From a virus, in IMG/VR virus record IMGVR_UViG_3300049097_000028, positions 1 to 23,522 of that record: 23,522 nt of DNA, one strand, 5' to 3'. Made by a program: the position numbers and the translations under genes. The stretch's first letter is position 1, and every line of letters begins with the position of its first letter. Shown piece by piece: positions 1-23,522 of the stretch. Under the pieces are notes generated by a model. That model ran no database searches, was not told where the DNA came from, and worked only from the letters and a program-made list of their open reading frames with translations.

Positions 1-576
1 CGTTATTCGGGCGGCGAATATACTTATGGTCACTTTTGGGGGCAAGGTACAACGACGATTGACGACCCGAATAACGGCGGCCACGCTTACGGCTTCGGCG
101 ACGGGGCCGCGCCGAATAATCAGAACTACGCCGCGACAATGAAGGCGCAAGGGCTGGACGAAATGATCGCCCTGGACGGCGGGGCGACCTGGATGATAAT
201 GAACGGGGCGTCGTCCTGGCCGGTCGGCCAGGATCGAGCCGGGACCGATCGCGGGCGGGGATACGGTTGTTCGCGGGCTGGCGGTCCAGGCGGCGGCTTC
301 GCACATTATCGGCTTTCACAATTAACCGCGTTTAAACCTTTGATCCCGATCCCTGCATTTTTGGCGAATACTACCCCGGCCCCTGATCAAGTTATGCTTT
401 TAGGGACGCAGCCCGATGTCAGAATGGTTAATATGGCAAACATTGAACCGGGCGAAGTCCTGACGGTCGCGGGCGAAGATTGGTATTGTTTCCCCTGGGT
501 CGTGAAAAAAATGGACCTAGACAACACGGAAGAAAGCTGGAACGCCGGGACCGCATACCGGCGCGAAAACGCTTAA
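1..576 (+). CDS. Tail/fibre-like virion protein, 3' part (possible frame disruption)
   Basis: The frame starting at base 1 is open from the left edge to the TAA at 574-576, so this is the 3' end of a gene or of two genes. The first ~70 residues are Gly/Asn/Tyr-rich (GHFWGQGTTT, ALDGGATWMIMNG), and the last ~75 (LIPIPAFLANTT, MLLGTQPDVR, EDWYCFPWVVKK, AGTAYRRENA) also read like a folded virion protein. The middle, about 221-320, is low-quality Gly/Arg-rich sequence in this frame, while frame 2 there reads far better and stops at 323-325. Either two genes are present, the second starting near TTG 340 or at the TTA 322 that overlaps that stop, or one gene carries two compensating indels. Position just before tail-tip genes supports a structural role. 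I do not recognise the family firmly. Confidence 0.5.
   Translation, partial: RYSGGEYTYGHFWGQGTTTIDDPNNGGHAYGFGDGAAPNNQNYAATMKAQGLDEMIALDGGATWMIMNGASSWPVGQDRAGTDRGRGYGCSRAGGPGGGFAHYRLSQLTAFKPLIPIPAFLANTTPAPDQVMLLGTQPDVRMVNMANIEPGEVLTVAGEDWYCFPWVVKKMDLDNTEESWNAGTAYRRENA
203..325 (+). other. Alternative frame-2 coding segment inside the first gene
   Basis: In frame 2, from just after the stop triplets at 194-202 to TAA 323-325, the translation contains RIEPGPIAGGDTVV followed by RGLAVQAAASHIIGFHN. This looks like a genuine protein C-terminus, unlike the Gly/Arg-rich frame-1 reading of the same bases. Frame 1 is convincing upstream up to about base 220, so a one-base shift lies between about 203 and 226. 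It could be a natural mutation, an assembly error or, less likely, recoding; I see no classical slippery sequence. Confidence 0.45.
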
Positions 577-579
577 ACA

Positions 580-2475
580 ATGACCGACTTCCCGACTCTT
601 TTAGTTCCTGGAACCGTAGCCCCGGACGACCAGGTCGGGCAGGTTTCGACCGATCGGGCTTATATACCAGGGATCGGGACGACGGCATATTGGGACCCGC
701 CGAACAACCCGGTCCCCCTGGCCCGCGCCCCGGCTGGTAAAATCGGACTAACGGACGGTTCGCGCGACGGGCGTCGCCTTTCATTTTTCCAGCGTTCAGT
801 TTCAGCGACAGCGAACACAACCTGGGGACGCGGCGGGGCGGGGCTGGCCCTGTCGCGTGAAGTTAATCGTCGCGCTATCCCGGCGCATAAGGTAGACCGA
901 CAGACCGTCCTGGAACAAATCCCGTCCGTTAAACGCGGCGGGCTGGCCGTCGGCCTGGGCGCTGAATGGTTCGAACAGATCGTCGTCTTCCCGACATCGC
1001 TGGCCCTGGGGAACGTGTTGTCGACCCAGGTCAGAACGATCGAAATATATAATAGCTTTCGACGGCCCCGACAAACGGTTCAATGGACGACCTTCGTCAA
1101 TAACGTCGGGGTCGGGGTTGACGTGACCAACCTTCCAGGACTGCCGTTTCCGTTGGTCGCGACGGAAGGCTTTATCGCCGACGTTCAGATTTCGACCGCT
1201 GGCCCGCCGTCGATTTCCGGGACCCTGGATTTCACATTCGGCCCCCCGCAAAGCGAAACCATTCCGGTCCCCGTGACGGGGAACAGGATCACTATTTTCC
1301 AGTATATTCCCCAGGCCCCGATCGGCGAATCGCTGCAGTTCAAAACGGACATATTGAAGAACAACGACGGCAGCGAACAGCGGGTTAAGGTTCGCAACGT
1401 CCCGCGCCAGTTAATGACCTTCACGGTTCGGACCGATGCGGGCCTTACCCGTGACCAGATAAACGCCGTCTTGTTCGATTGGCAAGCGCGCGTTTTTGGC
1501 GTTCCGATTTGGTTCGAACAGCGTCCCCTGGATAGCGACATTTTGATCGCCGCGACCGACTTCGACGTCGACACGTCAGCCGCGGATTATAGGGTCGATT
1601 CCCTGGTTATGATTTGGGAGTCGAACCAGCATTTCGAAGTCCTGGAAATCGCCAGCTTGACGGCGACGAACATCGTCACGAAAACGCCATTCGCGAAAGC
1701 ATTCACGGCGGGAATTGCTAGTGTCATGCCGGTCCGAACCGCTTACACCAGGCCAGCATTGTCGAACACCAGGTTCGCGATCGGGCCGTCCGATTTCAAA
1801 ATGGAATTCGAAATCCTGGACAATGTCGACCTGGCCAGCCTGGGGGCGTTTAATACTTACCAGGGCGTCGGCCAAACCATCCCGAAGCCGATCCTGGACG
1901 GGTTTAATTTCATGGGGGGCGCGACCATCGGGGAAGGCAACCGCCGCCGGGTCGAACGCCTGGACGTCCTGACCGGGCCGCCGATTCAGTATTCGCCCTG
2001 GACCAAAGGAAAGCCGATCTATCAATTCGGGTTCGAAGCGAAATCATTCGACGAGGTTTTCGAATGGCGTCAATTAGCGCATTATTTGCGCGGGTCACAG
2101 TTGTCGTTTTACGTCCCGACCGGGCGGACCGATTTGAAGCCGATCGGCGACGTCCTGGACACGGCGACATTTATCGACGTTCAAAATTTCGGTTTCACGA
2201 ATTTTATTCAGGAAGTGACGCCGCGATCTGACCTTCGGTTTGTGCCGATAAGCGGAACCCCGTCGGTTCACCAGATCACGGCAAGCCAGGAACAAAGCGC
2301 AACCGTCGAACGGATATCGTTTTCGCCAGCGGTTAGCCCAGGAATAACGCTTGCGAATTTGGATCGGGTCGAATTTGTGACACTATGCCGGATTGATAGC
2401 GACAAGGTCGACCTGATCCACGGGCGACCAGGCGAATCACGAATTCAGTTTAATTTGATAGGGGTCCCGGCGTGA
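580..2475 (+). CDS. Phage tail protein, 631 aa
   Basis: A large beta-rich virion protein in the tail-tip cluster, immediately upstream of the BR0599 hub gene. It starts at ATG 580, three bases after the previous stop, with only a weak ribosome binding site. Visible blocks are an N-terminal 120-residue Pro/Gly-rich arm, then a segment beginning VRTIEIYNSFRR (about residues 149-160) that resembles the first domain of baseplate or distal-tail type proteins of several siphoviruses, then GSEQRVKVRNVPRQLMTF (about 265-282) and a C-terminal half of repeated short beta-like stretches. By position it may be the distal tail or a minor tail protein linking the tube to the hub. The exact family is unassigned. 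The gene overlaps the next one by four bases (GTGA). Confidence 0.85.
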   Translation: MTDFPTLLVPGTVAPDDQVGQVSTDRAYIPGIGTTAYWDPPNNPVPLARAPAGKIGLTDGSRDGRRLSFFQRSVSATANTTWGRGGAGLALSREVNRRAIPAHKVDRQTVLEQIPSVKRGGLAVGLGAEWFEQIVVFPTSLALGNVLSTQVRTIEIYNSFRRPRQTVQWTTFVNNVGVGVDVTNLPGLPFPLVATEGFIADVQISTAGPPSISGTLDFTFGPPQSETIPVPVTGNRITIFQYIPQAPIGESLQFKTDILKNNDGSEQRVKVRNVPRQLMTFTVRTDAGLTRDQINAVLFDWQARVFGVPIWFEQRPLDSDILIAATDFDVDTSAADYRVDSLVMIWESNQHFEVLEIASLTATNIVTKTPFAKAFTAGIASVMPVRTAYTRPALSNTRFAIGPSDFKMEFEILDNVDLASLGAFNTYQGVGQTIPKPILDGFNFMGGATIGEGNRRRVERLDVLTGPPIQYSPWTKGKPIYQFGFEAKSFDEVFEWRQLAHYLRGSQLSFYVPTGRTDLKPIGDVLDTATFIDVQNFGFTNFIQEVTPRSDLRFVPISGTPSVHQITASQEQSATVERISFSPAVSPGITLANLDRVEFVTLCRIDSDKVDLIHGRPGESRIQFNLIGVPA

Positions 2476-3302
2476 CGTTTGACGCATTCGAAACCAGTGT
2501 CGAAGATGGCAACTTAATTGAACTTTACCAGTTCACCCAGGGCGCGGTCGTCAGCCGGTTCACGAACTTTAATCAGGACGTTACTTTCAACGGGTCGACC
2601 TGGTTGACCACGCAAATCAGCCGCGAAAATATAGAACGGGCGATCGAAACCGGGATCAATGATTTAAAAATTCGGATGCCGCTGGATAACCCGATCGCGT
2701 CGCAATATATCCCGAACGTTCCGGGGAAGGTGATCGACGTTATCATATACCGGGCGCATTTCACGGACCCGGCTGAACAAGTCCTGGTCGTGTTCGAAGG
2801 CTACATCGCCCAGGCGGAATTCGACGGCGGCCTGGAAGCGACGTTGACCCTTCAACCGTTTACTAGTCAGTTTAAAAGATCGGCCCCCCGATACACTTAT
2901 CAAAGCCTTTGTAATCATGTTTTATATGATGCCCAATGCAAGATCGCCAGGGGGTCATTCACGCACGTCGGACTTTTGTCGGGCATAGACGAAACGCTTC
3001 GAACGGTCACTGTGAACGGCGTCGTCGGCAATGGTTCGGATTGGGCGGTCGGCGGTTGGGTCGCCTTCCCTGCAGGCGGAAACGATGATCAACGCCTGGT
3101 CGTCGCGCAATCGTCCGACACGTTGACGCTATTGTCGAACTTCGCGTCCGACGTCCTGGGCCAGAATGTCGACGTCTTCGCGGGCTGCGCGCATGATATC
3201 GGAACCTGTAACACGAAATTCGCGAACGTGATCAATTTCGGCGGGACGCCTTACGTTCCCGTCAAAAATCCATTCGGGTCCACGATTCGCGGGGGTTCGT
3301 AA
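2472..3302 (+). CDS. Tail hub protein, BR0599/DUF2163 family
   Basis: A 276-residue protein matching the phage BR0599/DUF2163 pattern, the family of the gene-transfer-agent and siphophage tail hub. Diagnostic parts are the N-terminal half with RENIERAIETGINDLKIRMP (51-70) and the C-terminal domain with C147-x8-C156 and C239-x6-C246, ending in FANVINFGGTPYVPVKNPFG. Known biology: lambda gpL, the functional counterpart, binds a 4Fe-4S cluster through four cysteines in its C-terminal domain, and the spacing here is, as I recall, the same. The start is GTG 2472, overlapping the upstream stop as GTGA, with AGGGG upstream. The stop overlaps the next start (TAATG). It should sit at the tail tip and recruit the J-like protein. 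Confidence 0.92.
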   Translation: MTFDAFETSVEDGNLIELYQFTQGAVVSRFTNFNQDVTFNGSTWLTTQISRENIERAIETGINDLKIRMPLDNPIASQYIPNVPGKVIDVIIYRAHFTDPAEQVLVVFEGYIAQAEFDGGLEATLTLQPFTSQFKRSAPRYTYQSLCNHVLYDAQCKIARGSFTHVGLLSGIDETLRTVTVNGVVGNGSDWAVGGWVAFPAGGNDDQRLVVAQSSDTLTLLSNFASDVLGQNVDVFAGCAHDIGTCNTKFANVINFGGTPYVPVKNPFGSTIRGGS

Positions 3303-6300
3303 TGCCGTTTTTTACGATGTTGCTGGTTTATGTCGCGACCTTCCTGATCACTGAACTATTAAGGCCGAAGCCAAACCTGGAAAACGCAAAGCCCGCGACC
3401 CTGGGCGACTTCCAGGTTCCGACCGCGACCGAAGGCCGAGTAATCCCGATCATATTCGGGCGGATCAATATCAAAGGCCCGAACGTGATCTGGTACGGCG
3501 ATTTAAAAACCGAAAAGATCGAAGAAGAAGTTTCGACCGGAATGTTCAGTTCCGAAGACGTGACCATAGGCTTCGAATATTACCTGGGCGTCCAGTTGGG
3601 ACTTTGCCGGGGACCGCTGACCGGCCCCCTGGACGAACTAGGCAATATCAGGAACGATGATTCGTATGTCTGGGGGCCGCTAGGTCCGAACGCCGAAGCC
3701 GCGATTAATCCGTCCGGCGGCGGGACCGCGTTCACGATCGACGTGAAAAACCATTTCGGCGAAAAAGACGCCCCTGGCCAGGGCGGCCTTCGCATCAACG
3801 CGGAAATTTATGACGGTTCAGCGACGCAAAGCACAAACGCATATTTAGCAGGATTTCAATCCCCGCTTCCCGCTTATCGGGGGCTGGCGTATATCGTTTT
3901 CAAACAGGGCTGGATCGGGAATTCCCCGCAGCTTCGGAATTTTGAATTCGAATTGGCGCGCTTCCCCGACGGCCTGAACCTGGCCGGGTTGCAACCAGGC
4001 GACGAAATAATAAACGACGGCTGTAATCCGATGAATGTCATTTATGAAATTCTGACGAATGCCGAATGGGGTTTGAACCTGGGCGCGATCCAGTTGAACG
4101 TCGTCGGGATGCGCGCAGCCGCCGCGACGCTGAAAACGGAAGGAAATGGATTCGCCTTTATTTGGGACCGGGTCCAGGAAGTCGCGGGGATGATCCGCAC
4201 GATCGAAGAACAAGTCGACGGCGTCCTGGTCCAGGAACCGCTGACCGGGGTTTTCAATTTCACTTTGATCCGCGACGACTACACGCCCGGAACGCTTCCG
4301 CTGTTGGATGAATCGAACGTCCTGGAAGTCCAGAAATTCCGCCGACCTTCCTGGAATTCGACGTCCAACATTGTCAGCGTTCAATTTGCCGACGCCCGGA
4401 AATCGTTTAAAACGTCTTACGCGGTCGCCCAGGATTCGGCGAATATCGACATCGTTAAAAACGTCAGCCTGTCGAACGTGAATTTCCCCGGCGTGAACAA
4501 TGCATCCCTGGCGAATTCCCTGGCATGGCGCGAACTGCGCTTGTTATCGTATCCGATCGGGACCGGGCGGTTAATCGTCAACCGGACCGAATACGAATTG
4601 AAACCGGGCGACGTCCGGGAATGGTCCTGGTCACGGTTGGGCTTAATCAGGCTACCGATTCGGATTACTAAGATAAATCGCGGGAACCTGTTGAAGGGCC
4701 AGATCGCGATCGACTTCACGGAAGACATTTTCGCCGCGACCGCTGGCACGTTCGCCGATCCGCCGGATACAATCTGGACCCCGCCCGACACGTCAGCCCT
4801 TCCGGCCCTGTTCGAAAAGCTGTTCGAAGTTCCCTATGTATTGACCGACGCGGAACTGGCCGGGGTCAATACGATCGCCGTCCAGGTCGGGACGTTGGTC
4901 GTTCGATCGGGAACCCAGGAAATCGGATATAACAAGTTCGTCGAAGTCGCCGACTTCCCGACCGTCCCGTCCGACCCGGCGGAAAGTTCGGTTATCGCCC
5001 CGGCGTCAACCAACGGGACGACCCCGTTCGGTTTGCTGGTTGGCGCGCTGGACGCTGGTCAGACTAACGGCTTCCAGGACGCGGTCGGTTTCATTGTCGA
5101 CAATGGGGTCGACCTGTCCAGGCTGACCGACATCGACGCGGGCCAGCTTGAAGCCCTGAATAATGGCTGCATGATCGACGACGAAATAATCCTGTTCAGC
5201 GACATCACGGACAACGGCGGATCGCATACGATTTTCAACCTGGTCCGGGGCGCGCTGGATACGCTGCCCGCCGAACATGCTGACAATGCACAGGTTTGGT
5301 TTTTTACCTACGGGACCGGGCTGGCCAACGCTTCGCCCGAAGGCGACACGTCGCAGAACTGGAAGGTCAGGAACCAGCTTTTTACAACGTTCGATACTTT
5401 CCTTTTCGCTTCGACGATCGTCAATTCCTTAACAACTGCCGGACGCGCTGGAAAGGCTTATCCGCCGCGTGATGTCGAAGTAAATCCGGCGGCCCCTGGC
5501 GGCGGGTATTTCCCTGTCGACGCGGGCAGTCCGTCGGGCGCTGAACTGGTCGGCCTGTTGGCGCTGACCTGGGCCGGGTCCGATAAGTTCGCCCAGGCCA
5601 GGGCGACCGCCTGGGACGATCCACACGTCACCCAGGAAGCCGGAAGCGCGTTCCGCTTGCGGATCATCGAAGACCCAGGCGGGGCCGACACGGTCGTCCT
5701 GGACGTTTCTGGCATACCTACCGGCGCAACCGAAGGGGCTTACAATGCGGCGGGGTTCGCGGACGATACGGTCACGGACTTATACCAGGCGGAACTGTCG
5801 TCGGTCGCGGTCAATGGTGAAAGCCAGGTCTGGACGATCGGGCCGTTTAATATTTACGGCTTCGGCTACAAAATGGACGAAAAGTTCGGCGGCGATTCTG
5901 ACGGGATTTTACTGGCGAAGGGCGACGTCCCGAACGTTGTCGATCCTATCCCAGGCGTGACCAGCCAATCCGTTTTCCGGGTTACGGCGTCGGGCGTGTT
6001 CGACAGCGACGACGATCTGGTCGTTTATATTTCGTTCCTGGAATTGGGCGGAAGCGTCAGCCAGAACGAACGTTATCACCTGATCGGGACCAGCGGCGGG
6101 AAAACGACCGTCGCCGATTACCTGTTGGAAATCGCGACCCTGATCGCGGGCGACTTCGATCCGATCAAAGTCCAGGCCGTCGTCGACGGGAACGTCCTGA
6201 CAGTGTCGTCCAGCTTCGGATCGATCGGCGGGGACATCGTTAATAACACGGCACAAACCCGGATCGATACGGTTATGCGGGCGATCGGCGGATCGTCGGG

Positions 6301-7264
6301 TCGAAATCAAATCGTAATGTTCGATCTATGGGAAGCCGACCCGTCGACTAGTCCGGCGACGCCGGTCCTGGCCCCGGCTGCGCTGGCCAGTTACAACGCC
6401 GACGCGCCCAGGGCGAACAAACTGGAACTTCAAGTCCAGGCCGGAACCCTGTCAACGCAACGCGACATCGCCGGAACCAGGGGACCGGGGGCCAGGTTGG
6501 ACGATACGACGATATTTTGGGGCGGGGTTGACGTCGCACCTGGAACCCAGGGGATCAGCCGCGAAAAGCCGCTGCGCTTCGGTCAGACAACCGCGCCATA
6601 TTCGGCGGCCTTCCCGTCCGATTTAATGGGTCAGCTTCGCAAGCTGGCGTCCGAAGAATGGTCCGAATATATTCAGTCCGTCAAATGGTCGAACTTCAAT
6701 CCGGTCGGGTCCGGCGGAATCCAGGCGGCCCGCCCGTCGGTTGAGGTTATGATGCGCGAAAACTTCGAACTGGTCGCCGCGACCGATTTCGAATCGACTG
6801 ACGAAAACACAATATTCGAAGGCCCGTTCGGCCCGGTCAAGTTACTAGCGACGGTTTCGGTTCCCCTGGTTCCGTTCACGCCACAAGGGACGCAGCAAAC
6901 GACCCGCGTCGTTTTCTCTGATATCGGCGACCCGTCGATCGGCGGGTTTACCGACGTCGTCGCGGGCCAGGTTTACACTATCACCCTGGGCGGCGTCACT
7001 TATACCGAAATAGCCACGGGCGGCGACGCGGCATTGTCGCCAGGGATACGCGACGGAATTTATACCCGGTTCAAAACTCAGATCGACGGGTCCGGTCTAT
7101 ATACTTGTGAATTGAACCTGGCCGATTATTACCTGACGGGGTCGCCAGCGACGCAGTTTATAAAATCAATGGATATCCTTCGGAATACGCAAACGGTCGC
7201 CTTCACATTCGACGCGCGGGCGTCCTATGGGTTACTGTTGGACCTGGAACATTTTGAAAACTAG
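3302..7264 (+). CDS. Tail-tip attachment protein, J-like, 1320 aa
   Basis: The largest gene of the window, following the hub gene as tail-tip (lambda J-like, Phage-tail_3 type) proteins usually do. A hydrophobic N-terminus (residues 4-20) is followed by RPKPNLENAKPATLGDF and a PTATEGRVIPIIFGRINIKG-type segment typical of these proteins. Residues about 240-490 carry the central hub-binding region (EVAGMIRTIEEQVDGVL, then a long beta-rich stretch up to FTEDIFAATAGTF). The C-terminal ~800 residues are a chain of beta-rich domains that probably carry receptor contacts and are specific to this phage group. GGGGG lies at 3291-3295 before ATG 3302. Role: central tail fibre or tip controlling adsorption and DNA ejection. 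Confidence in the general role is high, in domain limits low. Confidence 0.87.
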   Translation: MPFFTMLLVYVATFLITELLRPKPNLENAKPATLGDFQVPTATEGRVIPIIFGRINIKGPNVIWYGDLKTEKIEEEVSTGMFSSEDVTIGFEYYLGVQLGLCRGPLTGPLDELGNIRNDDSYVWGPLGPNAEAAINPSGGGTAFTIDVKNHFGEKDAPGQGGLRINAEIYDGSATQSTNAYLAGFQSPLPAYRGLAYIVFKQGWIGNSPQLRNFEFELARFPDGLNLAGLQPGDEIINDGCNPMNVIYEILTNAEWGLNLGAIQLNVVGMRAAAATLKTEGNGFAFIWDRVQEVAGMIRTIEEQVDGVLVQEPLTGVFNFTLIRDDYTPGTLPLLDESNVLEVQKFRRPSWNSTSNIVSVQFADARKSFKTSYAVAQDSANIDIVKNVSLSNVNFPGVNNASLANSLAWRELRLLSYPIGTGRLIVNRTEYELKPGDVREWSWSRLGLIRLPIRITKINRGNLLKGQIAIDFTEDIFAATAGTFADPPDTIWTPPDTSALPALFEKLFEVPYVLTDAELAGVNTIAVQVGTLVVRSGTQEIGYNKFVEVADFPTVPSDPAESSVIAPASTNGTTPFGLLVGALDAGQTNGFQDAVGFIVDNGVDLSRLTDIDAGQLEALNNGCMIDDEIILFSDITDNGGSHTIFNLVRGALDTLPAEHADNAQVWFFTYGTGLANASPEGDTSQNWKVRNQLFTTFDTFLFASTIVNSLTTAGRAGKAYPPRDVEVNPAAPGGGYFPVDAGSPSGAELVGLLALTWAGSDKFAQARATAWDDPHVTQEAGSAFRLRIIEDPGGADTVVLDVSGIPTGATEGAYNAAGFADDTVTDLYQAELSSVAVNGESQVWTIGPFNIYGFGYKMDEKFGGDSDGILLAKGDVPNVVDPIPGVTSQSVFRVTASGVFDSDDDLVVYISFLELGGSVSQNERYHLIGTSGGKTTVADYLLEIATLIAGDFDPIKVQAVVDGNVLTVSSSFGSIGGDIVNNTAQTRIDTVMRAIGGSSGRNQIVMFDLWEADPSTSPATPVLAPAALASYNADAPRANKLELQVQAGTLSTQRDIAGTRGPGARLDDTTIFWGGVDVAPGTQGISREKPLRFGQTTAPYSAAFPSDLMGQLRKLASEEWSEYIQSVKWSNFNPVGSGGIQAARPSVEVMMRENFELVAATDFESTDENTIFEGPFGPVKLLATVSVPLVPFTPQGTQQTTRVVFSDIGDPSIGGFTDVVAGQVYTITLGGVTYTEIATGGDAALSPGIRDGIYTRFKTQIDGSGLYTCELNLADYYLTGSPATQFIKSMDILRNTQTVAFTFDARASYGLLLDLEHFEN

Positions 7265-7273
7265 GGGGCGACC

Positions 7274-7906
7274 ATGCCACAAACAGCACTGTTAAGACTT
7301 GGGATAAATTACGATTACGACGCCGGGGACGACGGCTGGAAAGCTGGTTATGACGGTTGGGCTGTCACAATGGACGCCTTCGCGATCGGCGGCCAGGTCA
7401 TCGACGAACGCAACGCCCAACCCGCCGCCGTCATTTCGGACGCTTATATCATCGGGACCGCGCCGTCCGGGGCCGCCTGGACAGGTAACGCGCGCGCCCT
7501 GGCCGTCTATAACGCGTCGACTTCGTCCTGGATCATTATTTCGCCGGTCGAAGGAATGGCCGTCTATGATCTGAACCTTCGAAAACAGCGGGTTTTTGAC
7601 GGCGTCGAATGGCAAGTCCGCGACAACATCCTGACGGTTGCGGCGAACGCCACGATCAGCCGCGACCATTACAACGCGACGATTGAACTAGACACGACAG
7701 CGGCGGCCAGGGACGTCACGATCCCCCAGGATTCAAGCGACGACCTTCCGATCGGCTTCCATTTCTATATCATCAACCGCAGCGGGACGAATAACGTCAC
7801 GTTTACATTGACCGGCCTGACGACCAGGGGGATCGCGGCGATCACTGCGGACCGGGGGAAGCTGCGGATCGTGAAGGTCGCGGCGGATACCTGGATCGAT
7901 TCATAA
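7274..7906 (+). CDS. DUF2793 domain tail-fibre-like protein
   Basis: A 210-residue protein. Residues about 50-115 follow the DUF2793 pattern: AYIIGTAPSGAAWTG, ALAVYNASTSSWIIISPVEG, then a short hydrophobic/aromatic strand ending FDGVEWQV. Proteins of this family sit at the end of tail operons in phages and gene-transfer agents of Alphaproteobacteria and are taken to be fibre or receptor-binding components. The C-terminal ~90 residues (VTIPQDSS, HFYIINRSGTNNVTFTL, LRIVKVAADTWIDS) form a typical beta-sandwich end domain of phage fibres. A GGGGG run just before ATG 7274 serves as ribosome binding site. It is in operon with the tail-tip gene, nine bases downstream. Confidence 0.82.
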   Translation: MPQTALLRLGINYDYDAGDDGWKAGYDGWAVTMDAFAIGGQVIDERNAQPAAVISDAYIIGTAPSGAAWTGNARALAVYNASTSSWIIISPVEGMAVYDLNLRKQRVFDGVEWQVRDNILTVAANATISRDHYNATIELDTTAAARDVTIPQDSSDDLPIGFHFYIINRSGTNNVTFTLTGLTTRGIAAITADRGKLRIVKVAADTWIDS

Positions 7907-7924
7907 ACCACAAAGGGGAAAACC

Positions 7925-8470: not shown

Positions 8471-8513
8471 TCGACCCCCGTTGTTTGTATGTTCGGGCCT
8501 TGTTTGCCAAACA

Positions 8514-8993: not shown

Positions 8994-8995
8994 GA

Positions 8996-13440: not shown

Positions 13441-13482
13441 GGACCTGAAACGACCACACAACAACGAGAGGAAGAAAAGCGA

Positions 13483-14124: not shown

Positions 14125-14139
14125 AAAGGAAACGAGACT

Positions 14140-14633: not shown

Positions 14634-14634
14634 A

Positions 14635-15469: not shown

Positions 15470-15473
15470 ACAA

Positions 15474-15701: not shown

Positions 15702-15712
15702 ATTCTGGAAGG

Positions 15713-15736
15713 TTGTCGCGTTACAAGCTACAATCG
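15713..15736 (+). promoter_or_regulatory. Repeated 24-bp element, rightward copy 2 (TTGTCGCG-N6-GCTAC)
   Basis: TTGTCGCG (15713-15720), six bases, GCTACAATC. The TACAAT part matches a -10 box in five of six positions. It lies 60 bases before the recombination gene at 15773 and points into it. Confidence 0.65.
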
Positions 15737-15772
15737 AGGGGCTATTTTGCAAACGAAAAAGGTAATCATCAA

Positions 15773-16891
15773 ATGACCGAACAAAACGAAGCCCTGGCGG
15801 TTGTCAAATCCGACAGCCCCCCGGCAGATCAACCGATTGAAATCCACAACCAATCCCCCGCCCCGGTCCAAATTCGAAACGCCTTCGACCTGGCCCCTGG
15901 CCAATTCAAGGCGGGACTGAAACGCCAGGGGGAAAATCGAACGGCCTTAATGACCTGGATCAAAGGCGAAATGCATGAAGGCGTCGACTATGGAAAAATT
16001 CACGTCGTCAAACGCGACAAATGCAACAAGGGGAAATTCTGCGATAACCCCCACCATTTCAGCAAGGATTCCCTGTTCAAACCAGGGGCCGAAAAAATCG
16101 TCGGAATGATGGGCTTCCGCGCGATCTGGCCGACGCTGGTCCAGTACGAAAACGCCGCGATCGAAGGGAAGCAAATCAACCAGGTCGCGCTTCGCTGCCA
16201 GTTGGTCGACAAGTCGGGGAACATCATTTCCGAAGGTTGGGGGGCGCGTAACCTGGCCCAGGATTCGAACGACCTGAACAAGTCCGTCAAAATGGCCAAA
16301 AAGTCCGGGCTGATCGACGCCGTCCTGAATGCTGGCGGATTGTCCGAAGTGTTTACCCAGGACGTCGAAGACATGCCGAAGGATTCGTTCGGCGACGAAC
16401 CGCCGTTCGATCCATACAACCAGGAACAGGTCCGGTTTGACGGGACCGAACGGATCGACCCGGCGAAGGCGTTCCCATTCGGGAAGCATAAGGGCCAGCC
16501 CTGGGCCGACGTTCCCCTGGACTATCTGGAATGGTGTCTGGATAAAATGTCGAACCTGGACCCCGGCCTTCGGAAGCAAATCGAACAGGCCGCCGCCGAT
16601 AAATTTGTCGCGCCGGAAGTGACACAAGGATCGTTTGAAGCTAAGATCGAAGAACGTTTCGAGGAAGTAACCGAAGACCAATTGAAAGACGAACGGATCA
16701 CGCGCGCCGAATCGCGTCCGCTGCAGTATTACGCGGACCTGATCGCAAGGGCCGCCGGACAGCTTGAACTTGAAAACGTGAAACAAGATATAGCCGGATC
16801 GATCCACGAAAAGCCGTTGAAGGCTTTCCTGGCCGAACGGCTGAACAGCTTTTTAAACTGGGAACCTGCAGGGGAAGAAAATGTCGACTGA
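15773..16891 (+). CDS. Probable recombination protein (annealing-like) with DUF3820 C-terminal domain
   Basis: A 372-residue protein. The N-terminal half contains ALMTWIKGEMHEGVDYGKIH (about 58-77), C84 and C90 in CNKGKFC, then HHFSKDSLFKPGAEKIVGMM (94-113) and SEGWGARNLAQDSNDLNKSV (153-172), with a KMAKKSGLIDAVLNAGGLSEVFTQD tract. Phage proteins with the LLKPGAEK block are commonly found in recombination modules; whether they are single-strand annealing proteins is my inference. Residues about 233-265 (FPFGKHKGQPWADVPLDYLEW) match the DUF3820 pattern. I start at 15773, with AAAGGTAA upstream. The stop overlaps the partner gene by 11 bases. Likely role: homologous recombination or repair during replication. 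Confidence 0.72.
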   Translation: MTEQNEALAVVKSDSPPADQPIEIHNQSPAPVQIRNAFDLAPGQFKAGLKRQGENRTALMTWIKGEMHEGVDYGKIHVVKRDKCNKGKFCDNPHHFSKDSLFKPGAEKIVGMMGFRAIWPTLVQYENAAIEGKQINQVALRCQLVDKSGNIISEGWGARNLAQDSNDLNKSVKMAKKSGLIDAVLNAGGLSEVFTQDVEDMPKDSFGDEPPFDPYNQEQVRFDGTERIDPAKAFPFGKHKGQPWADVPLDYLEWCLDKMSNLDPGLRKQIEQAAADKFVAPEVTQGSFEAKIEERFEEVTEDQLKDERITRAESRPLQYYADLIARAAGQLELENVKQDIAGSIHEKPLKAFLAERLNSFLNWEPAGEENVD

Positions 16892-17600
16892 AATAAACAT
16901 CAATAAAGAACTGGCGAAGGCCGAACTTCGTCCGATCGCGATCGATATCGCAACGTTCAACGATACGCTGGACGGGATCGAAATCGAAACCGAAGACGAC
17001 CAGGGGACCGTCGCGGACCTGGTTAAATTTATGAACGGATCGCGGAAGAAACTGGAAACGAAACGCCTGTCCCTGGTCGAACCGTTGAAGTCGGTCGCGA
17101 AGGACATCGACGCAATGTTCAAGGTCCCGCGCGATCAGATCGACCTGGTCCTGGTGAAGGCGAAAGGGAAAATGAACAATTTCGCCCAGGCCCAACACGC
17201 GATCGCAGCCGCCAGGGCGAAGGCCGATCGCGAAGAAGCCGAAGCCGAAGAACGCGAAGCCCGCAAGCTGGCCGCCGACCTGGCGTCGATCAGCGAACAC
17301 GCCGCACCTATGGCCGAAGCCGTCATCGAACAAGCCCAGGCGAAGGTCGTCAAGGCCGCCGCCCCGGTCCAGGTCGCCGCCGTCAAATCCGAAACGACAA
17401 CGACCGCCGTCAATAAGACCTGGACGGTCGACGTCCTGGACGTGGTCGCGCTTTGCCGCGCTGTCGCCGACGGCCTTATCGGGCCGGAAATGATCGACCC
17501 GAACATGGCGGCCCTTCGTGATTTCTGTCGGGCCGAAGCGGTCGAACGTGAGAAATTCGGCTGCAAGTTCTATCAAAAGATTTCGACAACTGTCCGCTAG
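16881..17600 (+). CDS. Recombination-module partner protein, coiled-coil (DUF1351-like)
   Basis: A 239-residue protein overlapping the previous gene by 11 bases, with GCAGGGGAAGAAA upstream. The first half (TVADLVKFMNGSRKKLETKR, LSLVEPLKSVAKDIDAMF) resembles phage proteins that accompany recombinases, including DUF1351. A long Ala/Glu/Lys helix (about 100-150) is likely coiled-coil. The C-terminal 60 residues (TWTVDVLDVVALCRAV, then a helical end with FGCKFYQKISTTVR) form a separate domain. The position directly behind the recombination gene suggests that the two act together, but the activity is unknown. Confidence 0.75.
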   Translation: MSTEININKELAKAELRPIAIDIATFNDTLDGIEIETEDDQGTVADLVKFMNGSRKKLETKRLSLVEPLKSVAKDIDAMFKVPRDQIDLVLVKAKGKMNNFAQAQHAIAAARAKADREEAEAEEREARKLAADLASISEHAAPMAEAVIEQAQAKVVKAAAPVQVAAVKSETTTTAVNKTWTVDVLDVVALCRAVADGLIGPEMIDPNMAALRDFCRAEAVEREKFGCKFYQKISTTVR

Positions 17601-17609
17601 GGGGTCGCT

Positions 17610-17825: not shown

Positions 17826-17834
17826 GGGGTCACT

Positions 17835-18888: not shown

Positions 18889-19151
18889 ACACCTGGCAAA
18901 TTATCGGCCTGGTCGTCGCTGGTTGGTTCGTCCTGTCGGTCCTGGCCCTGATCCTGGCGATGAAATGCTTCGAAGCCGGACGCTATGCCGAACGGAAAAT
19001 GGTTTCCGAAAACCTGGCGGAAATTGTTCGCCAGGGCGTCGATAAGGTATTGGGCGCGCCGAACGAACAATGGTCCAAACCCATGCGGGACCAGCTTCGG
19101 CTGAAAATGTTCGAAACAATTTCAGAGGTAAAAAACACGACCAGGCATTGA
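18885..19151 (+). CDS. Small membrane protein, GTG start
   Basis: An 88-residue protein starting at GTG 18885 (GTGA overlap). One N-terminal transmembrane helix (about 5-24, IIGLVVAGWFVLSVLALILA) is followed by a basic/acidic cytoplasmic or periplasmic helix (YAERKMVSENLAEIVRQGVD, then a final RLKMFETISEV). Last gene of the early/middle rightward operon before the hairpin and terminator. Function unknown; it could be membrane-anchored and may interact with host cell-surface or replication machinery. Confidence 0.72.
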   Translation: MNTWQIIGLVVAGWFVLSVLALILAMKCFEAGRYAERKMVSENLAEIVRQGVDKVLGAPNEQWSKPMRDQLRLKMFETISEVKNTTRH

Positions 19152-19213
19152 TCAACCCTTTTAACTTGGGTCCGATGCGGAAACAATGTCCGGTCGAGTA
19201 TTTCAAGGCGCTA

Positions 19214-19248
19214 GGGTCCCCCGCGCTTTGATCTGAAAAGGGGGGACC
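19214..19248. other. Strong hairpin before the terminator
   Basis: GGTCCCCC (19215-19222) and GGGGGACC (19241-19248) form an 8-bp stem around an 18-base loop in the gene-free stretch after the middle operon. There is no T-run on either side, so it is not an intrinsic terminator by itself; it may protect the upstream 3' end or cooperate with the terminator that follows. The rest of 19152-19288 shows nothing else I can support. Confidence 0.5.
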
Positions 19249-19288
19249 AGGGTCGCGCGTTTGTTGGTATCCTCGCGGCCTGGGGAAG

Positions 19289-19334
19289 GCCCCGTCGATC
19301 GGTTTTCGTTTCCTGGTCGGCGGGGCTTTTTTTT
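19289..19334 (+). terminator. Strong intrinsic terminator of the middle operon
   Basis: Bases 19289-19300 (GCCCCGTCGATC) pair with 19315-19326 (GGTCGGCGGGGC), a 12-bp stem with two G-T pairs and a 14-base loop, followed by eight T residues. It separates the middle operon from the lysis cassette. Confidence 0.9.
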
Positions 19335-19359
19335 GCCTGCAGGGCGGTTTTGGTATAAG
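19333..19359 (+). promoter_or_regulatory. Promoter candidate for the lysis cassette
   Basis: TTGCCT (19333-19338) and TATAAG (19354-19359) with 15 bases between them resemble -35 and -10 boxes. They lie right behind the terminator and about 50 bases before the first lysis gene at 19409. Confidence 0.5.
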
Positions 19360-19408
19360 GTCGGCCCGTCGATCGTGAGGATCGCCCGAATCACCAGCGG
19401 GGAACCGA

Positions 19409-19852
19409 ATGACAATTGAACGCGTCCGCGATGACCGAAGCAAAAAGGGAACCCACGGCGTCATCGAGCTAGGCGGGAAAACCTGGCACACCATCGAACC
19501 CCCGGACCTGGGGAACAAGCCCTTCGAATCATGCGTCCCCCTGGGCGAATATGATCTATTGCCGTTTTCGTCCGCGAAATATGGCGAAGTCTTTTTGATG
19601 GTTAACCCCGATTTAAACGTTTACGCCTTCGAAGATTCACCTGGCCGCCCGGACGACGGTCGCTTCCTTTGCATCCTGGCCCACAAGGGAAACGAGGTTG
19701 AAAACTTCGTCGGCTGCGGGGGCTGTTCGCATACCTACGACGAAGCAAACGACCGCCTTTTGTCCAGCACAAAACAATCATGCATCGAATTTAACCAGGC
19801 TGTCCGCGACGAAGGATCGTTGAAGCTGACAGTCCGACACGAAATCGACTAA
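19409..19852 (+). CDS. DUF5675 family protein
   Basis: A 147-residue protein with the DUF5675 pattern: an opening strand pair (HGVIELGGKTWHTIEPPD), GNKPFESCVPLGEYDLLPF (about 36-55), a strand containing an aromatic residue and NPDLNVYAFED, then FLCILAHKGNEVENFVGC with GGCSHTYDE. Members of this family sit in or next to lysis cassettes of many tailed phages; the activity has not been established to my knowledge. It stands directly after a new promoter and heads the lysis operon, so it may be involved in peptidoglycan processing. GGGGAACCG precedes the start. Confidence 0.8.
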   Translation: MTIERVRDDRSKKGTHGVIELGGKTWHTIEPPDLGNKPFESCVPLGEYDLLPFSSAKYGEVFLMVNPDLNVYAFEDSPGRPDDGRFLCILAHKGNEVENFVGCGGCSHTYDEANDRLLSSTKQSCIEFNQAVRDEGSLKLTVRHEID

Positions 19853-19862
19853 CGGGGAACCC

Positions 19863-20309
19863 ATGCAAAAGAAATTCAGCGAACAATCGACCGGGGTCCA
19901 ATGGGGAACGATTGCCACAATTATCGGATTATTGTTCGGCGGCTTCGGCGCGGCCATATGGACGGCAGGCGACACGATTATCGATACAAAATATTCGACC
20001 GACGTCGACGTCCAGGGCGTCCAGAAAAAGTTCGGCGAACAGTTCAACGCCTTCCAGGAAACCGTCCAGGCGAACACGGCGTCCGTTCAATCGACCGCCA
20101 GGTCCGTCGATGGGTTGACCCTGGTCGTCCTGGACCTTCGAATCCGGGACCTGGAAAATATCAAGTTCGACCTGGAAAGCGAAAAGACGAACGCCGGGGT
20201 CAACTGGAACAACGGCGACGAACGTGAATTGGTCGGTCTGCGGAAATCGCTGTCCGATCTGAACATTCAGCGCGACCGCTTGTTTCAGCGCATACTGGCC
20301 AACCAATGA
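19863..20309 (+). CDS. Membrane-anchored coiled-coil protein of the lysis cassette
   Basis: A 148-residue protein with an N-terminal transmembrane helix (about 16-36) followed by a helical coiled-coil from about 50 to the end (QGVQKKFGEQFNAFQETVQ, RKSLSDLNIQRDRLFQRIL). ACGGGGAACCC before ATG 19863 is its ribosome binding site. By order and architecture it could be a holin-associated or XhlA-like protein; sequence alone does not prove this. It overlaps the next gene by four bases (ATGA). Confidence 0.7.
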   Translation: MQKKFSEQSTGVQWGTIATIIGLLFGGFGAAIWTAGDTIIDTKYSTDVDVQGVQKKFGEQFNAFQETVQANTASVQSTARSVDGLTLVVLDLRIRDLENIKFDLESEKTNAGVNWNNGDERELVGLRKSLSDLNIQRDRLFQRILANQ

Positions 20310-20548
20310 ACGGCGACGATATGCAACGACCCGGCCCAGGTTTCGAACGTCACGCCCAAACAGGCTTGACTGTCCTGGTCGTCGCCCTGTTGTGTTGGGT
20401 TGGCCTGACCACGCAAAACACCCAGGTCGAAGTCGCGAAAATCGTCGTGAAGGTTTCCAGCCTGGAAGCGGCGGCCAAAGTTCCGGACGCCCGCGTCGAT
20501 GATCTGACCAGGCGCGTCGAAGCCCTGGAAGCGGCGGCCCGACCATGA
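20306..20548 (+). CDS. Small membrane/coiled-coil protein, lysis cassette
   Basis: An 80-residue protein with one transmembrane helix (about 20-37, GLTVLVVALLCWVGL) and a coiled-coil C-terminus (VVKVSSLEAAAK, TRRVEALEAAARP). Both ends overlap neighbours by four bases, so it is coupled. This organisation (membrane anchor plus short coiled coil, between lysis genes) is like XhlA-type lysis helpers; the assignment is tentative. Confidence 0.65.
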   Translation: MNGDDMQRPGPGFERHAQTGLTVLVVALLCWVGLTTQNTQVEVAKIVVKVSSLEAAAKVPDARVDDLTRRVEALEAAARP

Positions 20549-20784
20549 CCCCCGAAGATTTCAATAAATGGCGCGTTTGGCCCCGGCTGTTGACCGGCGC
20601 GTTTTCGCTGTTTTTCTTCTATGCCTGGTTTTATGTCGTCGATTGGTTTATCGCGTTCAATTGGGAAACGGTCGAAAACCAGGCGGTCGCCCTGGCCCTG
20701 GCCGGGTTCCCCGCCGCGATCCTGACCGTGATCACGATCGTCCTGGGGAAGTTGATCGATAAATATATGAACGGACCGACGTGA
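20545..20784 (+). CDS. Holin candidate
   Basis: A 79-residue protein with two predicted transmembrane helices, about 15-37 (LLTGAFSLFFFYAWFYVVDW) and 47-71 (AVALALAGFPAAILTVITIV), and short charged ends. Small size, two membrane helices and the position directly before the spanin genes fit a class II holin, which forms the pores that end the infection. It starts at ATG 20545 in an ATGA overlap and ends overlapping the GTG start of the i-spanin gene. Similar short proteins with an EDFNKWR N-terminus occur in other phages. Confidence 0.65.
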   Translation: MTPEDFNKWRVWPRLLTGAFSLFFFYAWFYVVDWFIAFNWETVENQAVALALAGFPAAILTVITIVLGKLIDKYMNGPT

Positions 20785-21158
20785 ATATCCAGATCATTAT
20801 CCTGGTTGTATGCCTGGGCGGCGGCCTGATCGGGGCCGGGGCCTGGATCGTGAACGGCCAGATCGACGCCCGTGTCGTTGCCGAACAGAACGCCGTCGCG
20901 TCAAAAATATCCGCCGAAACGGCGAACGCCAGGGTCGCGCAACTCGAAAGCGACCTGGTAAAAGAAAGTGAACGCCAGGAAATACTTCAAAAGGAACTGC
21001 AGGCCGCCCGCGACCTAGAAGCAACAACGACCGAAGTCCTGGAAGACCGTCGACGCCTTGATTCGCTTACCGCAGCAAAGCCGACCCTATTGGAACGCAT
21101 GGCGCGGAAAGCGACGACGAAGGTTTGGGACGAAATCGAGTCGGAATCGCGACAGTGA
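20781..21158 (+). CDS. i-spanin (Rz-like)
   Basis: A 125-residue protein with an N-terminal transmembrane anchor (about 4-24) and a long periplasmic coiled coil (about 30-100, AETANARVAQLESDLVKESE, RQEILQKELQAARDLEATTT), the architecture of inner-membrane spanins. Spanins fuse the inner and outer membranes at the end of lysis. The start is GTG 20781 overlapping the previous TGA. The gene's end overlaps the o-spanin start by four bases. Its presence shows a Gram-negative host. Confidence 0.78.
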   Translation: MNIQIIILVVCLGGGLIGAGAWIVNGQIDARVVAEQNAVASKISAETANARVAQLESDLVKESERQEILQKELQAARDLEATTTEVLEDRRRLDSLTAAKPTLLERMARKATTKVWDEIESESRQ

Positions 21159-21490
21159 AAGCGGGCGCGACTCTGTTTTTCCTGCTGGCCCTTCCTGGCT
21201 GTTCACTGCTATCCCCGAAGCCCGCCGACATAGTAATCAAGCCGGAACCCGTCCCGGTCATTTGCGGGGCCGTCAACAACAAGCCCGACGCCCTGGTCCT
21301 AAAGGACACGCCGCCGACGGTCGCCCTGGGTCCGAACCAGGTTTGGGGTTACTGGTTCAGTCCTGACCTTTACGCGTCGTTAGCGGAAAACCTGCAAGCA
21401 ATGCGGGCCTATATGATCCAACAGCGCGCCATCCGTGGGACCCTGGTCAAATGCATCACGGACCACAATGACAAAATAAAAACGGAATAA
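21155..21490 (+). CDS. o-spanin lipoprotein (Rz1-like)
   Basis: A 111-residue protein starting at GTG 21155, which overlaps the i-spanin TGA. The first 15 residues are a lipoprotein signal with lipobox LPGC (cysteine at 16), directing the protein to the outer membrane. The mature part is proline-rich near the start, then contains QVWGYWFSPDLYASLAENLQ and two further cysteines. In most phages Rz1 lies inside Rz; here it follows it, as in the separated type. I am fairly sure of the lipoprotein nature and moderately sure of the spanin role. Confidence 0.77.
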   Translation: MKAGATLFFLLALPGCSLLSPKPADIVIKPEPVPVICGAVNNKPDALVLKDTPPTVALGPNQVWGYWFSPDLYASLAENLQAMRAYMIQQRAIRGTLVKCITDHNDKIKTE

Positions 21491-21514
21491 TTGTCGCGGT
21501 TTTTGCTACCATCC
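21491..21514 (+). promoter_or_regulatory. Repeated 24-bp element, rightward copy 3 (TTGTCGCG-N6-GCTAC)
   Basis: TTGTCGCG (21491-21498), six bases, GCTACCATC. It starts on the base after the o-spanin stop and ends seven bases before the ATG at 21521, which would make that message leaderless or nearly so. Confidence 0.65.
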
Positions 21515-21520
21515 GACCCG

Positions 21521-21706
21521 ATGCTGGAATTCTCAAACATTGACATTTTTATCCTGGCCGCCCTGGCTAGTTGCGCCGGGGGGCTGTCGTCTATCCTGTT
21601 CGGTAAATGGATCAGGCGTCGGACCGAAATATCGCGGGAAGGCTGGCACGAAAAAGAACGCCGCCGAATCGAGGCAATTAATAAACAACTGAACGGGGGG
21701 ACGTGA
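21521..21706 (+). CDS. Small membrane protein, possibly leaderless
   Basis: A 61-residue protein with one transmembrane helix (about 8-27, IFILAALASCAGGLSSILFG) and a charged C-terminus (GKWIRRRTEISREGWHEKER). The start is ATG 21521; the TTG at 21491 falls in the promoter-like element. No ribosome binding site precedes ATG 21521, and the element ends seven bases upstream, so translation may begin at the 5' end of the message. Function unknown. It overlaps the next start (TGATG). Confidence 0.65.
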   Translation: MLEFSNIDIFILAALASCAGGLSSILFGKWIRRRTEISREGWHEKERRRIEAINKQLNGGT

Positions 21707-22002
21707 TGTCCGAAAACCAAATTCCGAAACTGCAAGTCCAGCGAATGGGCAAAAAATGGCGGATCGTATACGTCGAAACGCGGGGGCTGGCCCGCTTCAA
21801 TAGTGGCCAACCGCTGGACGCCTGCAAGGGCAGCGAAAAGGGCGGCGGGTTCCTGGACGTTCGTGACGGCGCGAAACTTAAAGTCGACGGACGGATCGAA
21901 GCATCGAAGCGAATGTCGGCTGTCCTGGCCAACTTGCCGCCGCCGGAATCGGGTCGCGATTGGATGGATACGGACCCGGAAGCGGAAGGAATCGGGAATT
22001 AA
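21706..22002 (+). CDS. Hypothetical protein
   Basis: A 98-residue basic protein. I take ATG 21706 in a TGATG overlap with the previous gene; GTG 21703 is an alternative three bases earlier. ACGGGGGGAC precedes it. The N-terminal half (VQRMGKKWRIVYVETRGLAR, then DACKGSEKGGGF) is strand-like, followed by a short helix (IEASKRMSAVLANLPP) and an acidic C-terminus. No family recognised. Confidence 0.72.
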   Translation: MSENQIPKLQVQRMGKKWRIVYVETRGLARFNSGQPLDACKGSEKGGGFLDVRDGAKLKVDGRIEASKRMSAVLANLPPPESGRDWMDTDPEAEGIGN

Positions 22003-22020
22003 ATCAACGGGGGAAATACT

Positions 22021-22149
22021 GTGGATATGTTATTGATACTTTTATTCGGCCTATTCCTGGGCTGGTTGACGACGCTAGTCGATAAAATTCCAACGGCGAA
22101 GGCGGTCGACGCCTGGGTTCGCGAAAAACTATCGGTCTGGTCGTCGTGA
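22021..22149 (+). CDS. Small membrane protein, 42 aa, GTG start
   Basis: A 42-residue protein starting at GTG 22021 with CGGGGGAAATACT just upstream. One transmembrane helix spans about residues 3-20 (MLLILLFGLFLGWLTTLV), followed by an amphipathic helix with a charged C-terminal tail (KAVDAWVREKLSVWSS). Its TGA overlaps the GTG of the collagen-like gene (GTGA). Too short for confident family assignment, but spacing and ribosome binding site support it. Confidence 0.65.
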   Translation: MDMLLILLFGLFLGWLTTLVDKIPTAKAVDAWVREKLSVWSS

Positions 22150-22778
22150 TCCGCGCCCTGTTCCTGGTCCTGTTACTGGCGGCGACGCCGGGGCTGGCGA
22201 AAAAAGGGAATGGACACGGACACGGACACGACCACGGCGGCGAAACTGGTCCAGCCGGTCCAGCCGGTCCAGCCGGTCCCCCAGGCGATCCAGGGCCAGC
22301 CGGTCCAGCCGGTCCAGCCGGGGCTAATGGAAACGACGGTCGGGACGGTGGCGATCCTGGCGATCCTGGTGGCGCTGATAACGGGGGCGGCGGCGAAGGC
22401 GAAGTCGCGAAATGCGGGTTCCTGGGTTGCAGTCAAAAGAACACTCCGGCCCCGGCGACGCCGGTCCCGGTTGCGATGCTGGTTCCGAAGGGTTATCCGC
22501 AAATAGTCATCGAACAGCATGGCGATATCGTGTCGGTAACGTTGATCGATTGGCCAGCGAAGCCCGAACCGATTCCCCCGGTCGTGATCCCCGCCCCGGA
22601 AGTGAACGTCGTCGTCGAAGCGACCACAATCGAACCGGCAAAAATTAACCTCGTCGCCGCTGAACCCGAAACCGAAGAACAAAAGAAAAAGAAACGCAAG
22701 GTCCGGAACGACGTCAATGACCTATTGAAGCAACTGGCCGAAGACGCGATCGCCCGCGATGACCCGCCCCCGGAATAA
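22146..22778 (+). CDS. Secreted collagen-like protein
   Basis: A 210-residue protein starting at GTG 22146 (GTGA overlap). Residues 1-18 are a signal peptide (IRALFLVLLLAATPGLA) with likely cleavage after A18. A His-rich stretch (GHGHGHDHGG) is followed by about eleven G-X-Y triplets from residue 35 (GPA, GPP, GDP, GND, GRD), i.e. a collagen-like rod; then a Gly-rich linker, a cysteine pair (C87-x4-C92 approximately), a proline-rich section, and a Lys-rich coiled-coil end (EEQKKKKRKVRNDVNDLLKQ). Phage collagen-like repeats are usually in fibres, but a signal peptide points to export by the host, perhaps to the periplasm or surface. Confidence 0.78.
   Translation: MIRALFLVLLLAATPGLAKKGNGHGHGHDHGGETGPAGPAGPAGPPGDPGPAGPAGPAGANGNDGRDGGDPGDPGGADNGGGGEGEVAKCGFLGCSQKNTPAPATPVPVAMLVPKGYPQIVIEQHGDIVSVTLIDWPAKPEPIPPVVIPAPEVNVVVEATTIEPAKINLVAAEPETEEQKKKKRKVRNDVNDLLKQLAEDAIARDDPPPE
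22249..22322 (+). repeat. 9-bp tandem repeats encoding the collagen-like rod
   Basis: CCAGCCGGT is repeated three times in two blocks (about 22251-22280 and 22296-22322) separated by a variant section. They encode the GPA triplets and may vary in number by slippage. Confidence 0.8.
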
Positions 22779-23118
22779 TTTCGGGGCCAGGAAAACCGTC
22801 GTCGATGGGATCACATTCGATTCACGCCGCGAGGCCCGCCGCTATTCCGAATTGAAGCTGTTAGAACGGGCGCACGAAATAACCGACCTGGAACTTCAAC
22901 CGCGCTTCCCCCTGGGAACTGACGACGATCCCGTCAAGATTCGATCGAAGGGATATCCGAACGGTCGTCGCTGCAGTTACAAAGCCGATTTTCGGTATTA
23001 CGACAACGTTTCCGGCCTGGTGGTCATCGAGGACGCGAAGGGTCACGACACGGACACGGCGCGCCTTCGACGGGCTTTTGTTGAATGGCAGTATAAAATC
23101 GTTATAGTATTGACCTAG
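22759..23118 (+). CDS. DUF1064 PD-(D/E)XK nuclease-like protein
   Basis: A 119-residue protein matching DUF1064: VDGITFDSRREARRYSELKL (15-34), LELQPRF (44-50), a CSYKADFRYY strand with D77, and VVIEDAKG with D92 and K94 (the (D/E)xK pair). This is the core of PD-(D/E)XK nucleases; E25 in the first helix is also typical. Phage members are thought to act as Holliday-junction or structure-specific nucleases. It overlaps the previous gene by 20 bases and has no clear ribosome binding site. It lies just before the terminase gene, as is often seen. Confidence 0.85.
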   Translation: MTRPRNNFGARKTVVDGITFDSRREARRYSELKLLERAHEITDLELQPRFPLGTDDDPVKIRSKGYPNGRRCSYKADFRYYDNVSGLVVIEDAKGHDTDTARLRRAFVEWQYKIVIVLT

Positions 23119-23165
23119 TCCAACCCGACAACCCGACAACTATGTCACGCGTGAGGCGCTGAACG

Positions 23166-23522
23166 TTGGCACGAAAAAAAACCATAACCCCCCGCCGTCG
23201 CTTACTTTTTCTGAAAGATTTGAAAGCGAACGGGCGGGTCACGTCGGCGGCCAAAAAAGGCGAAATGAACAGGTCGTCCTGGTACGATTTAGCCGAACGC
23301 GATCCCGATTTCAAAATGGAATGGGACGACGCCCTGGCCGAATTCCTGGACTTAGGCGAGGCGGAAGCCTGGACGCGGGGGATCGACGGAACCTTGAAGT
23401 CGACGCCATACGTTCACGTCAAAGGCGACAAACGGGAAACCAGGTTCCACAAGGTAAAAGAAAAATCCGATCGCCTGTTGGAATTCTGTTTGAAAAATCG
23501 TCATCCACATTTTAAGCCGACG
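23166..23522 (+). CDS. Terminase small subunit-like protein (partial at right edge)
   Basis: The reading frame from TTG 23166, with GTGAGGCGC upstream, is open to the end of the window and gives 119 residues. It begins with a basic segment (ARKKTITPRRRLLFLKDLKA), a helix-turn-helix (ANGRVTSAAKKGEMNRSSWY, then DLAERDPDFKMEWDDALAEF), an EAEAWTRGIDG block and SDRLLEFCLKNRHPHFKP. This order matches phage small terminases, which recognise the packaging site. An internal ATG would be too late. The gene continues beyond the window, presumably followed by the large terminase subunit. Confidence 0.82.
   Translation, partial: MARKKTITPRRRLLFLKDLKANGRVTSAAKKGEMNRSSWYDLAERDPDFKMEWDDALAEFLDLGEAEAWTRGIDGTLKSTPYVHVKGDKRETRFHKVKEKSDRLLEFCLKNRHPHFKPT

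Follow-up and report, generated by a model that had tools for sequence, protein, structure and literature searches.

The stretch of DNA analysed here, referred to as the window, is the metagenomic contig of IMG/VR record IMGVR_UViG_3300049097_000028, a 23,522 base fragment of a siphophage genome. What sets it apart is the near-absence of the trinucleotide GAG and its complement CTC. The features of the window on which the text draws are the following, genes having been assigned by matches to phrog families:

1..23522, no strand: siphophage genome fragment with GAG/CTC at 0.11 of the dinucleotide expectation (counts and simulation)
580..2475, plus strand: tail assembly protein gene (phrog_1082), used in the codon-matched comparison with the sister contig G004
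2472..3302, plus strand: tail assembly protein gene (phrog_778)
3302..7264, plus strand: central tail hub protein gene (phrog_1101)
3438..6743, no strand: longest run without GAG or CTC, 3,305 bases, within the tail hub gene (exact scan)
13466..13470, plus strand: surviving GAGAG near the start of a helix-turn-helix regulator gene, an example of a residual copy (exact scan)
15713..16891, plus strand: gene for a recombination/exonuclease-associated protein (phrog_10048) with a DUF3820-like C-terminus
16881..17600, plus strand: gene for an exonuclease-type protein (phrog_10477)
22759..23118, plus strand: DUF1064 protein gene (phrog_190, "Holliday junction resolvase")

An exact count gives 39 GAG and 19 CTC in the window, with 5 and 3 of these in positions 1-7900; a preliminary description made by eye had put the numbers at about 35 and 17, and at about five and two, and its estimate that base composition predicts about 400 of each is close to the 405 calculated here. 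Over both strands 58 copies are observed against 534 expected from dinucleotides (ratio 0.11), a shortfall well beyond a factor of two, and first-order Markov simulation produced 514 +/- 19 copies and never fewer than 472, where the window has 57 when counted without overlaps. As the expectations are derived from the same depleted sequences, this ratio and those given below are conservative. GAG/CTC is the lowest triplet by a wide margin, followed by AGA/TCT (0.49) and GTG/CAC (0.55); every combination of one-base flanks is low, and the loss is equal on the two strands and in all codon phases. The under-representation thus goes beyond composition on both strands, as in restriction-site avoidance.

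That the depletion reaches beyond in-frame Glu and Leu codons, as the preliminary description held, is borne out by the phases. Within codons, Glu is nearly always GAA, as stated there (378 GAA to 20 GAG, 95% GAA), and CTC makes up five of 499 Leu codons (1%). At the two codon-junction phases GAG occurs 8 times against 61.7 and once against 35.4 expected from synonymous-codon shuffles, and CTC 7 times against 31.3 and 4 times against 96.8, which places both words, on the sense strand, at roughly 0.03-0.22 of the shuffles. Non-coding DNA, with 15 GAG/CTC versus 131 GAC/GTC, is as poor as coding DNA. Supply of tRNAs or codons was rejected as the cause because CTC and the junction phases are depleted too. 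The example coordinates quoted in the description lay about one base off (3658-3663 reads TGATTC), which is of no consequence.

How the word is lost was read from a comparison with G004, the nearest sister read as a whole contig, in which gene order is the same, the tail hub is 55% identical and the GAG ratio is 1.29. At aligned positions where the amino acid is unchanged, the window has replaced 152 of the 157 GAG/CTC found in G004; for GAC/GTC the figure is 48 of 159 (30%) and for GAA/TTC 18 of 100. Which base is exchanged depends on where the phase allows a silent change, and more than one base serves as substitute: Glu codons change G to A at the third base, junctions of an Arg or Gly codon with a following G change A to G, C or T, and junctions of a codon ending in C with one beginning in TC change that C to G, T or A. 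Multi-base replacements dictated by silent positions exclude a single mutation type. GAG sites are also shared between the window and its depleted relatives at a proportion of only 0-0.35 (control words about 0.6), and between the Rhodobacter phages RcTitan and RcSpartan at 0.13 (control words 0.75-0.89), which indicates that such sites arise and then vanish again. Removal by selection through changes constrained by coding is found here as in restriction-site avoidance. These data show that GAG/CTC is kept out by continuing selection on a double-stranded DNA word, on both strands and in all phases; the earlier claim that selection acts on the DNA and not through tRNA supply therefore holds, on the strength of phase and strand symmetry, code-dictated replacements and fast GAG turnover.

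The preliminary description had proposed a search for relatives with the same depletion, and these exist. Close relatives of the window (L001, L002, L003/G001, L004 and L025) have GAG ratios of 0.08-0.20, and the more distant phage G003/L026/L027 has 0.27. The central tail hub is 73-84% identical in depleted relatives and 53-59% in non-depleted sisters, and relatives at this latter level of identity have ratios of 0.81-1.35. Strong depletion recurs in Septimatrevirus and Kilunavirus (0.03-0.04), with observed over expected GAG/CTC of 28/826 in Pseudomonas phage 73, 29/809 in KL1, 31/792 in VCLv11 and 36/900 in DoCa1, and in the Rhodobacter Titanvirus phages RcSpartan (5/854 in 44 kb) and RcTitan (10/867); Birtae stands at 0.28. 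Loci fetched with the KL1 primase range from 0.00 to 1.07, the lowest being those most like KL1 and those with a GC content above about 0.47. The trait thus belongs to phage lineages, with hosts spanning three proteobacterial classes. In two loci (L118, L119) the most depleted triplet is GGA/TCC (0.40-0.42) and not GAG; the word that is purged may therefore vary from lineage to lineage. RcSpartan (L163) lacks GTAC, of which about 76 copies are expected; GGAC/GTCC stands at 12 of 204 expected and GTAG/CTAC at 7 of 54, so this lineage purges further words, some of them not palindromic.

Of the copies that survive in the window 19 lie in TCGAG, 6 in ATCGAGG and 35 of 58 in CGAG; the contexts named in the preliminary description are therefore real, while their excess is only a mild preference, slightly above the CGA share, because CGA is generally abundant. 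Of the 28-36 GAG that survive in Septimatrevirus and Kilunavirus, 13-15 are GGAG shortly 5' of an ATG, as expected if ribosome binding outweighs the cost of GAG and the word is retained where function requires it. In Birtae GAGC is spared and TGAG, GAGG and GGAG are the most depleted, and the exact motif may thus differ by lineage or be a mixture. Two minus-strand GAG copies, spaced exactly 24 bp, survive where the major capsid gene starts and are conserved in Septimatrevirus/Kilunavirus (L059 7149-7173; L061 7114-7138; L062 5026-5050; L060 19243-19267). A role of this pair as origin was rejected, the pair being absent in RcSpartan.

The explanation that we favour, at a probability of roughly 45%, is that the phages avoid the sites of a DNA-cleaving or nicking system that is sequence-specific, has a non-palindromic GAG core and is encountered in Pseudomonadota hosts. 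The putative system would read the GAG core and be less active on GTG and GGA; phages without a protective base modification would cut the cost of infection by carrying few or no targets, GAG being purged just as restriction palindromes were removed. A single widespread system could be responsible, or several systems that have GAG in common in their recognition sequences. The more specific proposition that a single widespread, undescribed bacterial system recognises bare GAG (GTG and GGA less), and that several unmodified phage lineages escape it by near-complete purging, is doubtful. A DNA-targeting system reading a GAG motif was among the causes listed in the preliminary description; it fits best, as GAG loss accompanies palindrome loss. 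The literature searched here yielded no known host enzyme with this recognition site.

The link to palindromes carries this explanation. Six-bp palindromes that do not contain GAG stand at 0.69 of expectation in the window, 0.73 in G001, 0.50 in phage 73, 0.45 in KL1 and 0.40 in RcSpartan, and at 0.83 in G004. Nine palindromic hexamers are missing or almost missing from the window, including CGGCCG (0, 20 expected), CCCGGG (0, 18.5 expected) and GCCGGC, GGGCCC, GGATCC and GGCGCC (all zero), and GATC is missing from phage 73 (76 expected). Across 84 dereplicated genomes or loci the GAG and palindrome ratios are correlated (rho 0.56, p 3.5e-8; related phages, not tree-corrected), also when GC is partialled out (0.57), and composition-matched control hexamers show no such relation with GAG (rho 0.04). 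GAG avoidance thus co-occurs with avoidance of other restriction sites, as far as a correlation without tree correction tells. The same parallel is seen inside one genome, that of Pseudomonas phage FE013 (L063), in which an island of 22 kb with much more ordinary word content and about 95 tiny unannotated genes (L063 19300-41060) is inserted in a purged backbone. The backbone has ratios of 0.02 for GAG and 0.43 for palindromes, with 12 GAG/CTC and GTCGAC, GCCGGC, CGGCCG and GGCGCC all at zero; in the island the ratios are 0.54 and 0.80, with 277 GAG/CTC and 15, 17, 19 and 12 copies of these hexamers. A search among phages for the donor of the island found none. The parallel loss of GAG and palindromes, FE013 included, connects GAG loss with pressure of the restriction type; the 277 copies in the island indicate that GAG is costly and not lethal.

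Several observations weigh against this explanation. We know of no restriction enzyme that reads three non-palindromic bases. In a large survey of phages, avoidance was nearly confined to palindromic Type II sites, being rare for Type III and not seen for Type I or IIG (PMC6286503). The palindrome correlation draws on related phages, and palindromes are avoided without GAG avoidance in PAE1 and phiKMV. Unrelated phages on the same hosts have GAG ratios of 0.57-0.81 (D3112 0.76, phiKMV 0.81, BcepNazgul 0.76), among them RcMrWorf, from the same strain as RcTitan, at 0.57, and it is one and the same word that is purged across phages of alpha-, beta- and gammaproteobacteria. On the supporting side, four relatives with the deazaguanine-pathway gene DpdA (MMDA13, VspDsh1, PaMx25 and JenP2) are near baseline at 0.70-0.84, which fits modification substituting for purging; non-depleted phages without DpdA nevertheless exist, namely G004 (1.29) and ply2008005c (0.82, 20 kb only). 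As no deazaguanine genes lie in the 20 kb read of the latter, modification is not the sole escape route. In Vibrio phage VspDsh_1 (L064), which has the deazaguanine pathway, GGC/GCC is down to 0.52.

Two alternatives place the cause in mutation or in the host. A context-dependent mutational process (polymerase error, deamination or a lesion) that destroys GAG/CTC would agree with the strand symmetry and with the three-base context typical of mutational signatures, and a strong mutational bias had indeed been listed in the preliminary description. It is contradicted by the code-dictated replacements between the window and G004, in which all three bases of GAG are replaced, by several bases, and by the retention of GGAG at ribosome sites, and it was rejected as highly improbable. 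A codon or genome signature of a host that itself avoids GAG is just as improbable, since CTC and the junction phases are beyond the reach of codon usage and the proposed check for depleted host genomes came out negative: the triple-GAG pattern GAGNGAGNNGAG, which would all but disappear under tenfold depletion, is present in 149 of 150 sampled Pseudomonadota genomes, mostly in many copies, so that these 149 lack comparable depletion, and genome contigs with a related capsid gene have GAG ratios of 0.57-0.98. On these grounds a host signature was rejected for the sampled Pseudomonadota. A search of genomes for tail and capsid relatives, aimed at the window's host, yielded no close prophage. 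A Pseudomonadota genome (G131, 2.0 Mb) has 232 copies of GAGNGAGNNGAG against 20 of the reversed pattern, a strong excess that is possibly a repeat.

Two further alternatives place the cause in the phages' own proteins. Their archaeo-eukaryotic primase (AEP)-polymerase may read GAG and, weakly, GTG, so that stray copies would prime harmfully and be removed. The primases of KL1 and Birtae carry the NrS-1 polymerase HBD (PF22763, E 2.6e-8 and 2.8e-8) and match NrS-1 primase structures, G003 has another AEP-like protein, and over 93 KL1-type primase loci GAG and GTG depletion increase jointly (rho 0.82). NrS-1 reads GTGA/GTGG (PMC8718748). These known members do not purge their own motif, however, GTG standing at 0.91 in NrS-1 and 1.35 in pRN1, whose primase needs GTG; a near-identical primase (L074, 78% identical) goes with a weaker depletion (0.32); and RcTitan and RcSpartan have just one GAG in common and no other possible shared priming site. 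A primase is encoded in Septimatrevirus and Titanvirus, and in neither the window nor G001, where no AEP motif was found; PF22763 was not found in the window, G001, G003 or G004. G001 and G004, broken at different places with each spanning the other's break, jointly give a whole circle without a primase or polymerase gene. Avoidance of priming sites was thus weaker than the restriction-like explanation, and we consider it unlikely. A screen for genes associated with depletion among the primase loci was set aside, as it returned mainly replication genes and antisense open reading frames and was confounded by phylogeny. G001 and G004 (L005-L007, L054-L056) suggest a genome of roughly 45 kb with no recognisable polymerase, primase or helicase genes. 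Quite unlikely as well is a phage-encoded, GAG-specific nuclease or nickase that degrades the host's DNA and to which the phages would become immune by purging their own. The trait does track phage lineage rather than host taxon, and VRR-NUC or PD-(D/E)XK-type genes occur in some relatives; yet BLAST detects no non-structural gene common to the window group and Septimatrevirus, VRR-NUC is unassociated with depletion (median 0.45 in 42 loci with it, 0.28 without, p 0.16), and the FE013 island holds its 277 GAG. The DUF1064 gene is present in the non-depleted sister G004 too and hence does not discriminate; both nucleases were rejected as cause for want of association. Modification by the phage itself, the remaining cause listed in the preliminary description, found no support: the TGT/DpdA family (PF01702) is absent in G001, G003, G004 and others, the family not having been searched in the 23.5-kb window itself, and a defence-model search of ten window proteins gave no match.

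Set beside known systems, the loss of GAG resembles Type II palindrome avoidance (Rusinov et al. 2018, PMC6286503) in that selection strips a short word from phages, and the present genomes have also lost many 6-bp palindromes; it differs in that the word has three bases and is not palindromic, the survey having found little avoidance beyond palindromic Type II sites and none for Type I or IIG. Depletion of the protospacer adjacent motif in CRISPR targets, where according to PMC12174588 CC is below expectation in Pseudomonas phages, especially at protospacers, is similar in concerning a very short under-represented word, whereas GAG loss is genome-wide and up to about 170-fold. The NrS-1/pRN1 primase motifs (PMC8718748) share the recognition of three or four bases of G-x-G form, and a homologous primase occurs in many depleted phages, but the known members keep their motif and the window group is without the primase. 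7-deazaguanine modification shields DNA from host restriction (Hutinet 2019, as cited in PMC7472734); the Queuovirinae with DpdA are related to the window in virion genes and differ in that no TGT-family gene occurs in the window's relatives tested and that the DpdA-positive relatives examined are not depleted in GAG. No prior account of GAG/CTC avoidance was found in the literature searched, from which subscription papers mostly lay outside, so an earlier report is possible; the searched texts of papers on KL1, MMDA13, phiAxp-1 and the Rhodobacter phages do not mention it. To our knowledge, no avoidance of a short word as strong as that of RcSpartan (5 copies in 44 kb, about 850 expected) has been described. 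The depletion suggests that an enzyme whose recognition word is unusually short acts on phages of many Pseudomonadota, and the GAG ratio offers a simple genomic marker for phages under such pressure and, by contrast, for those with another escape. Because the cultivated phages PA73, KL1 and RcTitan carry the trait, its cause is directly testable. The preliminary interpretation was partly supported overall, the recurrence in other phage groups and the normal GAG content of the near sister having lain outside its view.

As for the other genes of the window, the product of 15713..16891 probably has a single-strand annealing function. The DUF1064 gene adjoins positions 22146-22778, which encode a secreted-looking collagen-like protein with GPAGPAG repeats.

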